NCBI RefSeq assembly: GCF_003403315.2
Contig: NZ_CP048407.1
Span: 930,001-994,000 of the forward strand
Length of the DNA: 64,000 nucleotides
Direction: 5' to 3'
Source: Thermaerobacter sp. PB12/4term
GTDB taxonomy: Bacteria; Bacillota; Sulfobacillia; Thermaerobacterales; Thermaerobacteraceae
Position 1 is the first letter of the stretch. Each line of letters starts with the position of its first letter. The translations under genes were made by a program, and so were the position numbers. Below, in pieces: positions 19,291 through 49,469 of the stretch. The notes under the pieces were generated by a model. That model saw nothing but the letters and a program-made list of their open reading frames with translations. It made no database searches and was not told where the DNA came from.

Positions 19291-19319
19291 TTGACCAGGG
19301 AACGCACGTTCTGTAATCT
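19291..19319 (+). promoter_or_regulatory. Promoter with LexA/DinR-type box for yhaO-yhaN-addB-addA
   Basis: A TTGACC -35 box (19291-19296) and a TAATCT -10 box (19314-19319) are separated by exactly 17 bp. Inside the spacer, GAACGCACGTTC at 19300-19311 fits the GAAC-RNRY-GTTC core of the Bacillus LexA (DinR) operator. A repressor bound there would block RNA polymerase. The first ATG (19328) is 8 nt past the -10 box. The hexamers and box are seen directly; SOS control is inferred. Confidence 0.75.
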
Positions 19320-19432
19320 ATATCCAGATGATCACGGGCCGGCGGTCACGACACCGCCGGCCGGCCTCGTGTGCGTGGGGGACCGGCCGGTGGGAACCTG
19401 AGACCTGTGTTTGCCCGCTGGGGGGACAAGCC

Positions 19433-20572
19433 TTGTTTCGCATCCTGCACCTGGCGGATCTCCACCTGGGATGGGAACCGCGTTTCATGGCGCCGGACCG
19501 GGCCGCCGAGCGCCGGCGCCGCCGGGATCGCCTGCTGGCCCGGGCGGTGGATTACGCCCTTGAGGCCAGCCATCAGGTGGGCCTGGTGCTTATCGCCGGG
19601 GACCTGTTCGAAACCCACCGGCCGCCGGAGTCGCTGGTTCAGGAGGTCATCAGCCAGCTGCGCCGGCTGGAGGCCGCTGGGGTCCCCGTGGTGACCGTGC
19701 CCGGCAACCACGACGAGATCACCTATCATGACTCGGTGTACCGGCGCTTTGCCGCCGCCTGGCCGGGCGTGCTGGTCCAGAACCCCCTGCCGGAGCCCGT
19801 GGCGACCCTGGCCGTAGCCGGCTTTCCCGTCCACATCTACAGTCTTGCCTACACGGGCGGGGTCACACCGGCGGGAAGTCCCTTGACGGCTTTCCCCCGG
19901 CTGGACGAACCGGGCCTCCATGTGGCCGTGTTCCACGGCACCCTGGGGCACTGGGGCGGCGACCGCAGCCTGCCCCTGGACCGGGAGGCCCTGGCCCGGG
20001 CGGGGTACGACTACGTGGCCCTCGGCCACATCCACCAGGCCCTGGAGGAACGCCTGGGACGGACTCCCGCGGTGTATGCCGGGGCTGTGGAGGGCAAAGG
20101 GTTTGACGACCCCGGGACAGGGGCCTTCACCCTGGTGGAGGTGGAGCCGGGGCGGGGAGTGGTGGCCGTCCGGCGGGAGCCGGTCCCGGTGCAGCCGGTG
20201 GAGACCCTCCGCATCGACGCCGGCACCTTCGGCAGCGCCGCCGAACTGGGCTCCTACCTGGCCAGCCTGGCCGCGCCCGACCGGATCCTGCGTCTCGAGT
20301 TGCATGGCACACCGGCCTTCGCCGTCGACGGGCCCGCGCTGCAGGCCGAACACGCAACCCGGTTCTTCCACCTGGAGATCCACGACGCCACGGAGCCCGT
20401 CAGCTGGGACGACCTGTTGCAATGGTCCCGGGAACCGACCATCACCGGGCTGTTCGTGCGGCGGTTGCTGGATCAGCTGGAGGGCGAAACCGAACCCCGG
20501 CGGCGCCGGGTGGTGGAGCGGGCCTTGCGCCTGGGGGTACAGGCGCTGATGCGGGAGGGACAGGCACGGTGA
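19433..20572 (+). CDS. SbcD/YhaO-like DNA exonuclease (metallophosphoesterase)
   Basis: 379 residues. Metallophosphoesterase motifs in order: HLADLHLG (metal ligands Asp and His), IAGDLFE (GD), VPGNHDEI (GNHD), VFHGTLGHWG and ALGHIHQ. This is the Mre11/SbcD nuclease fold in its YhaO branch. With the SMC-like ATPase encoded next it should form an SbcCD-like DNA-end processing complex. The TTG at 19433 gives an N-terminus just before the first motif and has GGGGGGAC six bases upstream. A leaderless ATG at 19328, just behind the -10 box, would add 35 residues that look non-native. Its TGA overlaps the next start (GTGA). Confidence 0.88.
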   Translation: MFRILHLADLHLGWEPRFMAPDRAAERRRRRDRLLARAVDYALEASHQVGLVLIAGDLFETHRPPESLVQEVISQLRRLEAAGVPVVTVPGNHDEITYHDSVYRRFAAAWPGVLVQNPLPEPVATLAVAGFPVHIYSLAYTGGVTPAGSPLTAFPRLDEPGLHVAVFHGTLGHWGGDRSLPLDREALARAGYDYVALGHIHQALEERLGRTPAVYAGAVEGKGFDDPGTGAFTLVEVEPGRGVVAVRREPVPVQPVETLRIDAGTFGSAAELGSYLASLAAPDRILRLELHGTPAFAVDGPALQAEHATRFFHLEIHDATEPVSWDDLLQWSREPTITGLFVRRLLDQLEGETEPRRRRVVERALRLGVQALMREGQAR

Positions 20573-41161: not shown

Positions 41162-41634
41162 GGCCCGGCAGGCCCGGGAAAGGCCGGGTTGGGGCGGCGG
41201 GCCCAGGGACGGGACGAACGAGCGGGACGAGCCGGCGGGGCGGGCGCCAGGGCGCCTGCCCCGCACTGTTTTGCGGGGCCCTGGGCGCGGCCCTGGGTCC
41301 CGGGTCGGGGCGCGGCCCTGGGCCCCGGGCCCGGGGGGCCCGGTGTAACGCGGCCCGGGGCGCGGGCCTGGGGGCCGGGGCGGGGGCCCGTGTACGCGGC
41401 CCGGGGCGCGGGCCCAGGCAGGCCGGATCGGCGGCCGCTCCCAGGCCGGATTGACGGCCGGTCCATCGCCCGACGGCCGGTGGATTGCCGGTGAAGGGGC
41501 CGGTCAGGAGCCCGGCTGCCCTCCCAGCCCGGCGGGCGGGACCGGAAGGGGCTGAGAACAGCTAGTGCGTTTCTTATCGTTTCTCGCCCAACGTCATCAA
41601 ATCTTAGCATCCCCACCCCTCCTCGGCCGGCTCG
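41162..41634. other. Intergenic region between permease terminator and tnpB promoter
   Basis: Beyond the terminator (41237-41272), 41280-41420 is a G/C-only tract in which GCGGCCCGGGGCGCGGGCC-type words recur three or four times. From 41560 the sequence becomes AT-richer, marking the probable left end of the TnpB element. No gene. Confidence 0.4.
41237..41272 (+). terminator. Rho-independent terminator of the permease gene
   Basis: GGGGCGGGCGC (41237-41247) pairs with GCGCCTGCCCC (41252-41262) over 11 bp with one G-T wobble and a 4-nt loop, followed by GCACTGTTTT. It lies about 75 bp after the permease stop. Confidence 0.65.
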
Positions 41635-41663
41635 TTGTCTAAGAACAGATGTTCTGATACGCT
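41635..41663 (+). promoter_or_regulatory. Promoter with LexA/DinR-type box in front of tnpB
   Basis: TTGTCT (41635-41640) and TACGCT (41658-41663) are 17 bp apart, with a TG one base before the -10 box (extended -10). The perfect palindrome AGAACAGATGTTCT at 41642-41655 fills the spacer; its core GAACAGATGTTC matches GAAC-RNRY-GTTC. The first ATG (41672) is 8 nt past the -10 box. A transposon-end hairpin could also use this palindrome. Confidence 0.6.
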
Positions 41664-41692
41664 GTCCTTGGATGATTTTGGGGGGCTTCCCC

Positions 41693-42874
41693 ATGCGTGT
41701 TTTGCAGGCGTACCGCTTCGCCCTCGACCCCACGCCTCGCCAGGAACGGGCGCTGGCCTCCCACGTGGGCGCCCGCCGCTTTGCCTTCAACTGGGGTCTG
41801 GCCCTGGTGAAGGAGCGCCTCCACGCCCGCGCCCGGGGCGCAGGCGTGGAGGTGCCGTGGACGCTTCCCGCCCTGCGGCGGGAGTGGAACCGGCAAAAGC
41901 ACGTCGTCGCCCCCTGGTGGCGGGAAAACTCGAAAGAGGCCTATTCCTCCGGCCTGGACGGGCTGGCCCGGGCCCTTCAGAACTGGTCAAAAAGCCGCAA
42001 GGGTGAACGCAAGGGACGCCGGGTGGGGTTCCCGCGCTTTCGGAAGAAGGGGCGGGGTCGTGAGTCCGTGCGGTTCACCACCGGCGCGATCCGGGTGGAC
42101 GACCAAAGCCACGTCGTCCTGCCCCGGATCGGGCGGGTGAAGACCCACGAGCCGACCACGGCCCTGCTCCGGCGCATCGAAGCGGGAACGGCCCGCATCC
42201 TGTCGGCCACGGTCGCCCGGGAAGGGGGCCGGTGGTTCGTCAGCTTCACCTGCGAGGTGGAGCGGCAGCCGGGCCGCCCCCGGTTCCCCTGGCGGGTGGT
42301 GGGCGTGGACGCGGGGGTGAAGTACCTGGCGGTCCTTTCGACGGGCGAGAAGTGGCCGAACCCCCGGTCCCTTGAAAAAGCCCTCCGAAAGATCGCCCGA
42401 TCCAACCGCGCCTTGGCCCGCCGGCAGAAGGGCAGCCGGGGGTGGCAAAAGGCCCGCCGCCGGCTGGCCCGGCTCTATGCGCGGGTCCGGAACACCCGCC
42501 AGGACGCCCTCCACAAGCTGACGCACCACCTAGCGAGCACCTATGGCGTGGTGGTGGTTGAGCAGCTGCACGTGGCAGGCATGCTGAAGAACCGGCGGCT
42601 TGCCCGGGTGCTGGCCGATGCGGCCCTGGCGGAGATCCGCCGCCAGCTTCGGTACAAGTGCGCCTGGCACGGGGCGGTATTGGTCGAAGCGCCGCTGTTC
42701 GATCCCAGCAGCAAGCGTTGCTCGCGGTGCGGTGCGGTCAAGTCGTCGCTACCGCTTTCGCAACGCGTTTTCCGCTGTGAGGAGTGCGAGTTCGTGCTCG
42801 ACCGGGACGAAAACGCGGCCCGGAATCTCGCGGCCCTGGTGGCCGCCGTCGCCGGGAGTGGCCCGGAGACGTGA
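41693..42874 (+). CDS. tnpB: TnpB, RNA-guided transposon nuclease (IS605/IS1341 type)
   Basis: 393 residues, full length. The split RuvC active site is intact: D206 (VGVDAGVKYL), E290 (GVVVVEQLHV) and D372 (LDRDENAARN). The zinc finger has C343, C346, C362 and C365 (CSRCG and CEEC). The N-terminal RVLQAYRFALDPTPRQ is typical. TnpB cuts DNA next to a short motif using an RNA from the transposon's right end, which promotes retention of the element. No tnpA lies nearby, so mobility would need a transposase in trans. The ATG at 41693 gives the usual N-terminus (GGGGGG upstream); the ATG at 41672 would add seven residues on a leaderless mRNA. Confidence 0.93.
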   Translation: MRVLQAYRFALDPTPRQERALASHVGARRFAFNWGLALVKERLHARARGAGVEVPWTLPALRREWNRQKHVVAPWWRENSKEAYSSGLDGLARALQNWSKSRKGERKGRRVGFPRFRKKGRGRESVRFTTGAIRVDDQSHVVLPRIGRVKTHEPTTALLRRIEAGTARILSATVAREGGRWFVSFTCEVERQPGRPRFPWRVVGVDAGVKYLAVLSTGEKWPNPRSLEKALRKIARSNRALARRQKGSRGWQKARRRLARLYARVRNTRQDALHKLTHHLASTYGVVVVEQLHVAGMLKNRRLARVLADAALAEIRRQLRYKCAWHGAVLVEAPLFDPSSKRCSRCGAVKSSLPLSQRVFRCEECEFVLDRDENAARNLAALVAAVAGSGPET

Positions 42875-43027
42875 AACGCCCGTGGACGGGATGGAAGACC
42901 TGCAGCAAGGCAGGCGATCCCGGAGGAAGCGGGAAGCCGGCACCGGCTCATCGCCGGGTAAGACCGGCACCGTCGATCCGTGAGGATCGACTGCCTGAAA
43001 CAGATGACGATGTTTCAGGTAACGGCT
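42824..43027 (+). ncRNA. Putative right-end guide RNA (omega RNA) of the TnpB element
   Basis: The last 50 bp of tnpB plus 150 bp downstream are conserved in the dead relic at 5566-5781 although that relic lost its reading frame. Two hairpins are visible: GTCGATCC/GGATCGAC (42972-42991) and CCTGAAAC/GTTTCAGG (43002-43019 region). The first keeps pairing in the relic through a compensatory T-A to C-G change. In known IS605-type elements the guide RNA spans the tnpB 3' end and right end, and its guide is the flanking DNA; here that would begin at about 43028, inside the gamma carbonic anhydrase-like gene. Confidence 0.55.
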
Positions 43028-43538
43028 CGAGGCTTCCGGCGAAGCGCCGCGCGTTTTCCCGGTAACGGGCCGCCGCGGCGCGGATTTCGGCCTGTTCTTC
43101 CGGCGTCAGGGAGCGGACCACCCGGGCCGGCACGCCCAGCACCAGGCTCCCCGGCGGGATCACCTTGCCCTCGGGAACCAGGGCGCCTGCTCCCACCAGG
43201 CTTCCGCGGCCGATGCGGGCGCGGCTCAGCACCACGGCCCCCATGCCGATGAGGCACTCGTCCTCCACGGTGCAGCCGTGGACAATGGCGCCGTGGCCGA
43301 TGGTCACGTCCCGGCCGATGCGGCAGGGCTCCCCGGCGTTGACGTGGAGAACGGCGTTGTCCTGCACGTTGCTGCCCGCACCGACGTGGATGAGGTCGAG
43401 ATCGGCGCGCAGGATCGCGCCGAACCAGACGCTGCTGTGCTCGTCCAGGACCACGCGGCCGATCACCCGGGCGCCCGGCGCCACGTAGGCGGTGGGGGCT
43501 ACGTGCGGCACCCGGTCACCAAGGCGGTACAGGCTCAC
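42948..43538 (-). CDS. Gamma carbonic anhydrase-like hexapeptide-repeat protein, 3' end replaced by the TnpB element
   Basis: 196 residues. Left-handed beta-helix repeats run from VAPTAYVAPGARVIGRVVL through GSNVQDNAVLHV, TIGHGAIVHGCTVED and LIGMGAVVLSRARIG, with the His residues that bind metal in the gamma carbonic anhydrase/YrdA family. It may hydrate carbon dioxide or be a non-catalytic relative. The GTG at 43538 follows GGGGAGGG. The element's right boundary falls at about 43027, so roughly the last 26 residues and the stop codon come from transposon DNA read backwards. The helix itself looks complete, so the protein may still fold. Confidence 0.88.
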   Translation of the reverse strand: MSLYRLGDRVPHVAPTAYVAPGARVIGRVVLDEHSSVWFGAILRADLDLIHVGAGSNVQDNAVLHVNAGEPCRIGRDVTIGHGAIVHGCTVEDECLIGMGAVVLSRARIGRGSLVGAGALVPEGKVIPPGSLVLGVPARVVRSLTPEEQAEIRAAAARYRENARRFAGSLEPLPETSSSVSGSRSSRIDGAGLTRR

Positions 43539-46454: not shown

Positions 46455-46738
46455 TGCCCACCACCCGCCAGGGGCTCGGGGCATCCGCCAGGGCGCCCGA
46501 GGTGCTCGCCACGGGCCTGGGGCCCTCGCCAGGGCATCCGAGGCACCCGCTAGGGCGCCCGGGGCCGGCCCGGCTGCCGCTCCACCTCGCAGGTGAACCC
46601 GGCGAACCCCCGCCCGGCCTCCCGCCCCACTGGAGCTGTGGCCGAGTGCGCCCGTTCCCGCTGCGATGCGCGGGCGCAGGGCCGCGGCCGGCACGTGGGC
46701 CTTGACCCGCCCGATCCGGGCGGACGGCGGGGCCCTCG
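46455..46738 (-). pseudogene. Decayed internal tnpB fragment with tandem-repeat expansion
   Basis: Reading the minus strand, CGGATCGGGCGGGT (46716-46729) begins a stretch that follows the intact gene from about 42120 to 42305. Its frames give RIGRVKAHVPAAALRPRIAAGTG and, after a shift, FTCEVERQPGRPR, against RIGRVKTHEP and FTCEVERQPGRPR in TnpB. At the point encoding PWRVVGV the motif CCCTGGCGGGTG has multiplied into four or five degenerate copies (46455-46570). Both ends of the transposon and all catalytic residues are gone. Confidence 0.8.
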
Positions 46739-47804: not shown

Positions 47805-47860
47805 TTGACGGCCGGTGTTGTCCCCTCCTACAATGGCCTCACCATGGGGAACACACGTTC
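47805..47860 (+). promoter_or_regulatory. Promoter and LexA/DinR-type box of the imuB-dnaE2 cluster
   Basis: TTGACG (47805-47810) and TACAAT (47829-47834) are 18 bp apart, the best sigma-A promoter in the window. The ATG (47844) is 9 nt past the -10 box, so the mRNA is leaderless or nearly so. GAACACACGTTC at 47849-47860, a GAAC-RNRY-GTTC match, covers codons 2-6 just downstream of the start point, where a bound repressor would block initiation. Confidence 0.75.
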
Positions 47861-49469
47861 GGTACCGATCCCGTGGATGGCTTTTGCCCGCCTCGAGGGG
47901 GCGTGGGCGGTGGCGGCCGGCGTGCAGGACCGGCCGGCGGTGGTGGCCGACGGCCCGGTCGTGGCCGACGTGTCGCTGCCGGCCAGGGCAGCCGGCCTGC
48001 GCCCGGGCATCCGGGTCCAGAGCGCCCGGCGGCTCCTCAGCAGCCTGGAGGTGGTGCCGCGGGATGCCATCGACCCCATGGCAGCCCTGGAGCCGTTCTA
48101 CGAGGCGCTGCTGTCCCTCTCGCCCCGGGTGGAGCCGGTGGTTGACCATCTGGCGGCCTTTTGCGAGCTGGACCCCCAGCAAACGGTGGACGGCGTGGTG
48201 GCCATCTTGCAGGCGGCAGGCCTGGAGCGCTACGGCCACCGCCTGGTGCTGGGCCTCGGCCACGGCCGGCTGGTGGCGCGGATGGCCGCCCGGGTGGCGG
48301 CGCGGTCCCCGACCGGCGGCGGCGCAGGGGCCACCGGCCGGCAAGCTTGCGGTTCCGGTCCCTTGTCGTCCCGCACCGGCCCCTCACCGGTCACCCGGCC
48401 ACCGGCCGGCCCTGCAGAAGGGGAGGCCGGGGCTCCCCGGTTCCGGGGCGGCACCTGGTCGTGGGCAGGGAGAGGGGCGTGGTGGGATGCGGAGGCGGTG
48501 GGCAGGGATGCAGCGGCGCAGCCGGGCTCGCAAGCCGGCTTCCCGGCGGGACGGGGCGGGCCGGCGGGCGGGCACCCGTCCCGTGCCCGGCCACCCCGGG
48601 AAGCCTGTGGCGCAGCGGGGCTGGCGGTGGTCAGCTGCTGCGTTCCTCCCGGCCAGGAAGCGGGCTTTCTGGCCCCCCTGCCCGTGGCTGCCCTGCAGGA
48701 AGAGGTGCCGCCGGCGGCTCGCCGCCAGCTGCAACGCCTGGGCCTGTACACCCTGGGGGATGTGGCCGCGGCGCCGCGGCAGGTGGTGGCCCGGGCGGTG
48801 GGCGACCAGGCTCCCCTCCTGCAGGCGTGGTGCCGGGGAGACGACCGCCGCCCGCTCAAGCCGGGTTTCCCGCCGCCGGGGGTCACCGCCACCCTGACCG
48901 CGCCTCCCGAGCTGGGGGATGAGCTCCGCGCCGGCTGGTGGCCGGCCCAGCTGCCCCTCCTGGCCCGGGATGTGGCCGCCCGGCTGGCCGCTGCCGGGCA
49001 GGCGGGCCGCCTGGTGATCCTGCAGGGGGAACGGTCCCGGGTGGGGCGCTACCTGCCCGTGGCCGCTGCCGGGCAGGACGTCCTGGCCCGCGCCGCCCTG
49101 GCGCTGTATCACCGCCTCGTGCCGGCCGAACCGGCCCCGGCCCGGCTGGACCTGACGGTGACGGCCCTGGAGCCGGCGGCCCGGCAACTGGCTCTGCCGG
49201 CAGCCTTTGACCCCGGTGCCGGCCCCGGCGGTCGGCGAGCCGTCCCCGGTAGTGAACGGCCCGGCACCGGCCGCCAGCGGGCGGGCCGTGCCCCGTTCCC
49301 GGCCGGGCAAGAGGTCGCCGGCCCGGAGCTGCCGGTTCTCCTGGATGAGCTGGCCCGCCGCTATCCGGGGCGGATCTTCTGGGGCCGGGAGCGGCCCGCC
49401 ACCCGGCGGGAACGCCAGCTGGCCTACTGGGATCCCTGGCGCGGGGCGCCCGGCCAGCCGGGCAGGTGA
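47844..49469 (+). CDS. imuB: ImuB-like, catalytically inactive Y-family DNA polymerase
   Basis: 541 residues. VPIPWMAFARLEG followed by RPAVVADGPVVADVSLPARAAGLRPGIRVQSARRLL is the N-terminal palm of a DinB-like protein, but the catalytic acidic residues (DxD and the later SxDE) are missing, as in ImuB. A helix-hairpin-helix-like stretch (LQRLGLYTLGDVAAAPRQVVARAVG) and a little-finger-type region follow, then FWGRERPATRRERQLAYWDPW at the end. A low-complexity insert occupies about residues 155-245. ImuB bridges the sliding clamp to the error-prone DnaE2. The ATG at 47844 is the only start that fits; it lies 9 nt behind a -10 box. Confidence 0.82.
   Translation: MGNTRSVPIPWMAFARLEGAWAVAAGVQDRPAVVADGPVVADVSLPARAAGLRPGIRVQSARRLLSSLEVVPRDAIDPMAALEPFYEALLSLSPRVEPVVDHLAAFCELDPQQTVDGVVAILQAAGLERYGHRLVLGLGHGRLVARMAARVAARSPTGGGAGATGRQACGSGPLSSRTGPSPVTRPPAGPAEGEAGAPRFRGGTWSWAGRGAWWDAEAVGRDAAAQPGSQAGFPAGRGGPAGGHPSRARPPREACGAAGLAVVSCCVPPGQEAGFLAPLPVAALQEEVPPAARRQLQRLGLYTLGDVAAAPRQVVARAVGDQAPLLQAWCRGDDRRPLKPGFPPPGVTATLTAPPELGDELRAGWWPAQLPLLARDVAARLAAAGQAGRLVILQGERSRVGRYLPVAAAGQDVLARAALALYHRLVPAEPAPARLDLTVTALEPAARQLALPAAFDPGAGPGGRRAVPGSERPGTGRQRAGRAPFPAGQEVAGPELPVLLDELARRYPGRIFWGRERPATRRERQLAYWDPWRGAPGQPGR

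Follow-up and report, generated by a model that had tools for sequence, protein, structure and literature searches.

A solo tnpB element and its promoter

The window analysed here, a stretch of 64,000 nucleotides from Thermaerobacter sp. PB12/4term, contains a solo IS607-type TnpB element on the forward strand, at about positions 41552 to 43025. Its limits were drawn from the homology limits of four genomic copies (93 to 95% identical to the window copy at the protein level) and from an empty site in the sister genome G003, and are exact only to within shared G residues. The empty site reads GGGACCGGGAGGAG followed directly by CTCGAGG, where the window has AAGGGG, the element and then CTCGAGG, and its flanks are 97% identical to those of the window element. 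As is typical of IS607 insertions, there is no target duplication and the insertion point is a G-rich dinucleotide. A complete IS607 element also carries tnpA, a serine recombinase gene; no IS607 transposase gene was found in the element or in the whole genome, and we therefore name it a solo tnpB derivative.

The tnpB gene (41693 to 42874, forward strand) encodes 393 amino acids and scores 509.4 bits against NF038280, for a cut-off of 350, with matches to PF01385, PF07282 and PF12323. The RuvC D/E/D motifs (GVDAG, VVVVEQL and DRDENAA) and a zinc finger (CSRC...CEEC) are complete. The product is an IS607-type predicted RNA-guided nuclease, and the description of the gene as intact, made in an earlier note on this DNA, holds. 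Translation probably starts at 41693, as in the related tnpA-tnpB copies, rather than at 41672, and a probable ribosome-binding site, GGGGGG, lies at 41680 to 41685 on the same strand. Downstream, still on the forward strand, come a guide-RNA scaffold-like element (Rfam RF03015, Transposase-2; 42926 to 42995; 74.6 bits against a gathering score of 42.7) and a right-end hairpin, CCTGAAACA...TGTTTCAGG (42994 to 43019), which differs little or not at all between solo and tnpA-tnpB copies. The 20 nucleotides of host DNA that follow (43026 to 43045, forward strand) are the putative guide sequence, judging from the first divergence point of the copies and from the biology of IS607 TnpB (PMC11061315). 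Some 3.5 kb away from the intact element, at 46541 to 46672 on the reverse strand, are the remains of a degraded tnpB (44 residues with 57% identity), and elsewhere in the genome (2470529 to 2474728) one solo tnpB copy is found within a few hundred bases of the RNase P RNA gene.

Upstream of tnpB, on the forward strand, a -35 box TTGTCT (41635 to 41640; TTGACA in one subfamily of copies) and an extended -10 box TG-A-TACGCT (41655 to 41663; TGRTAYGMT in most copies) are separated by a 17-bp spacer (41641 to 41657), and this spacer holds the predicted LexA operator, AGAACAGATGTTCT, at 41642 to 41655. The palindrome is thus placed where the earlier note had put it. It had been called perfect, which is true of the arms, AGAACA and TGTTCT, but not of the central GA, which is not self-complementary, so that 12 of the 14 positions pair. 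The proposed match to the LexA/DinR core also stands: the core GAACRNRYGTTC fits the published Gram-positive LexA consensus CGAACRNRYGTTYC (PMC2248561), the outer C of which is an A in AGAACAGATGTTCT. Sites of the form GAACN4GTTC are over-represented, with four in the window against 0.30 expected from shuffled sequences, and 45 genome-wide against seven for the reversed pattern. In the 2.82-Mb genome there are four exact occurrences of the 12-mer GAACAGATGTTC, one directly upstream of each full-length tnpB (4/4). Given the homology limits of the copies and the empty site in G003, the box belongs to the mobile element and not to its host context.

LexA-type boxes at host genes

The host encodes LexA (TIGR00498, 259 bits). 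The divergent promoter region between lexA and a YneA-like LysM gene (yneA) contains two boxes, GAACACACGTTC and GAACAAATGTTC, one of which sits in a TTGACA...TATGAT promoter; the tnpB box matches the operator type found there. Further boxed genes of this genome are Y-family polymerase-like, SbcD-like and radical SAM genes. Two such boxes, assigned to neither strand, fall in the window: GAACGCACGTTC at 19300 to 19311, before an SbcD/Mre11-like phosphoesterase gene (19328 to 20569), and GAACACACGTTC at 47849 to 47860, at the start of a Y-family polymerase-like gene (47844 to 49466). The corresponding genes are boxed in the sister genomes too, as is uvrC in one of them (G004). Contrary to expectation, the recA loci of four genomes of the genus have no GAACN4GTTC box, and the SOS circuit of the genus is in this respect atypical.

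The box in related tnpB copies

Absence of the box from related copies had been named as an outcome that would speak against LexA control. In three genomes of the genus, 16 solo copies have a 5' end that can be read, and every one of them has the box at the same position, even where the copy is degraded (two cases) or a remnant of 75% identity (one case). As expected for a member of a LexA regulon, the operator overlaps the promoter and is kept in orthologous copies. The cores present are GAACAGATGTTC, GAACATATGTTC, GAACAAATGTTC, GAACATACGTTC and GAACACATGTTC. On a tree of 13 copies, Fitch counts gave no change at 11 of the 12 core positions and three changes at the remaining, degenerate N, while the eight bases just upstream of the core (the -35 box and the start of the spacer) underwent 11 changes. 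The coding sequences of these 13 copies have a median dS of 0.27 and a median dN/dS of 0.17, indicating purifying selection on the protein. Copies within one genome are related and may be homogenised by recombination, so that these counts are not fully independent.

The tnpA-tnpB copies provide an internal control: none of the seven (six in G001 and a seventh, degraded) has the box. In these copies tnpB directly follows tnpA, the gene ends overlapping or abutting, and the four whose right ends were compared have the same right end as the solo copies, which are nested among or beside them in the tree. One degraded copy without a box looked solo, and actually lies downstream of a tnpA remnant. 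The simplest history suggested by these sequences is that tnpA was lost and that a separate, SOS-type promoter was gained. Its likeness to the yneA promoter hints at promoter capture, convergence on the consensus being the alternative.

Recurrence in other TnpB families

The generality of the arrangement was tested by an unbiased search of 154 genomes of the class for the promoter pattern TTN6-GAACRNNYGTTC-N3-TAN3T, with the reversed pattern as a control. The screen returned 39 matches and the control none. Twenty of the 39 are tnpB genes. Fifteen belong to the genus family; the other five, of which four are in G046 and one is in G059, belong to a family of IS200/IS605 type with about 35% identity to it. 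The remaining matches inspected were mostly YneA-like genes, helicases and further genes of the kind expected in an SOS regulon. In this second family the promoter reads TTGACA-NN-GAACN4GTTC-GGG-TATAAT and lies just inside an IS605-type left-end hairpin. Six boxed copies of the family were found, including a 59%-identical relative in G059 whose spacer is one base longer, and one 83%-identical relative lacks the promoter. A further screen match (G046, contig C44, 150000 to 152100) has lost tnpB and kept the SOS promoter and the right end; it is possibly a guide-RNA-only element under LexA control.

Genome G046 has 27 GAACRNRYGTTC sites. Nineteen of them are at TnpB elements, which fall into three families with 5, 7 and 7 sites. 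An HMM confirmed one full-length member per family; the remaining members, some of which are truncated at contig ends, were placed by their sequence similarity. The LexA-box arrangement recurs, independently, in TnpB families other than that of the window element. The fit of two of the G046 families (B and C) to the RNRY pattern is not independent evidence, as they were found with it. In seven loci of family C (MKRTxVLLLLP; L359, L366, L368, L370, L372, L373 and L374) the LexA-type box overlaps the start codon, just after TATAAT. This position suggests leaderless transcripts, and coding constraint may contribute to the conservation of the box.

The same promoter pattern was also sought in 399 genomes of the phylum (8 matches for the control), and no TnpB is among the 78 matches outside the class; those at recognisable genes were mostly of SOS type, the names being read from translations and not from HMM searches. 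Among about 90 IS607-type relatives outside the genus, none has a perfect match to GAACN4GTTC in the 120 bp before the TnpB start. In the genomes covered, then, two genera of a single class have the trait. Five solo tnpB copies from Dormibacterota (L106, L131, L136, L137 and L144) have a near-box, CGAACRGATGTGCG, one mismatch from the LexA box, which overlaps a likely -10 (GATAAT).

Probable LexA control and its possible role

Operator sequence, promoter geometry and match to the host regulon argue in the same direction as the distribution of the box, which is conserved in solo copies, absent from the tnpA-tnpB ones and present again in other families, and at the sequence level the SOS control proposed in the earlier note is well supported: the tnpB promoter is very probably under LexA control. 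Because the box is present in all 16 solo copies and recurs in distant TnpB families, it is very probable that DNA damage induces these nucleases.

The following mechanism can be proposed. LexA bound at 41642 to 41655 would overlap the sigma-A-type promoter and exclude RNA polymerase, so that tnpB would normally be off. Upon DNA damage, RecA would be activated and LexA cleaved, and a single transcript would then give both tnpB and the 3' guide-RNA scaffold; the processing by TnpB of its own mRNA to give guide RNA is known (PMC10278001). LexA binding, induction and guide-RNA production from the tnpB transcript are what we infer from the sequences. Programmed by the flanking host sequence, TnpB would cut element-free copies of that site, and repair of the cut by a RecA-type pathway would copy the element back or in. 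The benefit, on this proposal and much as the earlier note had suggested, may be that a chromosome cutter is confined to times when recombination repair is induced and loss of the element is likely, a suggestion that we make tentatively. With similar reserve, we consider it a plausible reading, somewhat short of an even chance, that solo TnpB elements have come repeatedly and independently under LexA as a form of SOS-timed RNA-guided homing or retention, in which damage leads to the cutting of element-free DNA during RecA repair.

Alternatively, LexA may be a mere silencer of a toxic nuclease in healthy cells, damage induction being incidental. This is the most serious competitor, if a less probable one. 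Selection against unregulated activity is the presumed reason why integron integrases under LexA are kept off (PMC3108266), and the solo elements, lacking tnpA, would draw no transposition benefit from constant cutting. However, any repressor could silence such a gene, and that LexA was arrived at repeatedly suggests that the timing is important. It is also conceivable, though quite unlikely, that promoter and box were captured from a host SOS gene such as yneA or lexA and persist as a passive relic, to which LexA may bind with no useful timing. The promoter of tnpB subfamily II, TTGACACGGAACATATGTTCTGGTATGCTG, is indeed closely similar to the host yneA promoter, TTGACACGGAACACACGTTCCGTGGTATGATGG, but a relic would not be expected to keep its core while the surrounding promoter diverges, nor to have comparable counterparts with different promoters in unrelated TnpB families, and the TnpB protein itself is under purifying selection.

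The box could also belong to the transposon end, as a hairpin or as a repeat bound by the serine transposase TnpA. Subterminal transposase-binding repeats do occur at IS607-family ends (PMC6188088), an AGAACAG is present at the left tip (41556 to 41562), and the right-end hairpin contains AAACAGATG. Nevertheless, no such box is present in tnpA-tnpB copies that share the right end and are related at the left tip; ACATA-type repeats are found there instead, and on this comparison with the solo copies we rejected a transposase site or end hairpin. Moreover, the box is in register with the promoter, 90 bp in from the end of the element; the base at which its centre varies is the one that is degenerate for LexA, and the same box is present at host SOS genes; we hold this explanation to be very improbable. 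The earlier note had named an end hairpin or chance as the reading to adopt if the box were absent from related active copies, and chance fares even worse. Shared descent could account for the box in the four closely similar genomic copies, but a motif with no regulatory meaning is hard to reconcile with a screen in which the control gave nothing, with a core conserved despite the synonymous divergence of the copies, and with boxes in independent lineages. We attach almost no weight to this possibility.

TnpB is the ancestor of Cas12, and to our knowledge little is known about the timing of its expression in cells. If LexA control is real, a LexA switch such as that seen in several TnpB families would constitute a natural induction signal for TnpB and would link RNA-guided cutting to the cell's response to DNA damage. 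A role of solo TnpB in retention or homing by recombination would then be directly testable with mitomycin C.

Comparison with known systems

The earlier note knew of no described case of LexA-controlled TnpB, and our literature search, which covered mainly open-access journal papers, found no published association of TnpB with LexA, SOS or mitomycin either. LexA control of mobile-element enzymes as such is already known, from integron integrases (PMC3108266) and from an ISCR transposase (PMC13393415, 2026), and one study of the LexA regulon of Clostridium difficile ribotype 027 lists an unspecified transposase. The integron integrases are, like TnpB, DNA enzymes of mobile elements, with a promoter repressed by host LexA and selection keeping the control in place; they differ in being cassette tyrosine recombinases, mostly with E. 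coli-type boxes, and not RNA-guided nucleases. For ISCR, again an insertion-sequence gene, LexA binding, repression and damage induction were all demonstrated. There, however, the regulated gene is the transposase, whereas here it is the accessory nuclease of transposase-less elements.

ISDra2 of Deinococcus radiodurans is a TnpB-bearing insertion sequence activated by irradiation, but according to the parts of that report available to us, irradiation acts on TnpA-driven excision and insertion, tnpB is dispensable, and no LexA box is mentioned (PMC2806898). IS607 TnpBs with RAGATH-18 guide RNAs (PMC11061315) belong to the same protein family (about 390 amino acids), with a structured 3' guide scaffold beside tnpB; 80% of those loci encode tnpA and their promoters are not discussed, whereas the boxed copies described here are solo. 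Finally, TnpB acts as a gene drive on plasmids, in the accessible portion of that work with no mention of damage control (PMC11870625), and this is the same retention or homing activity as the one we propose here for solo TnpB under LexA.
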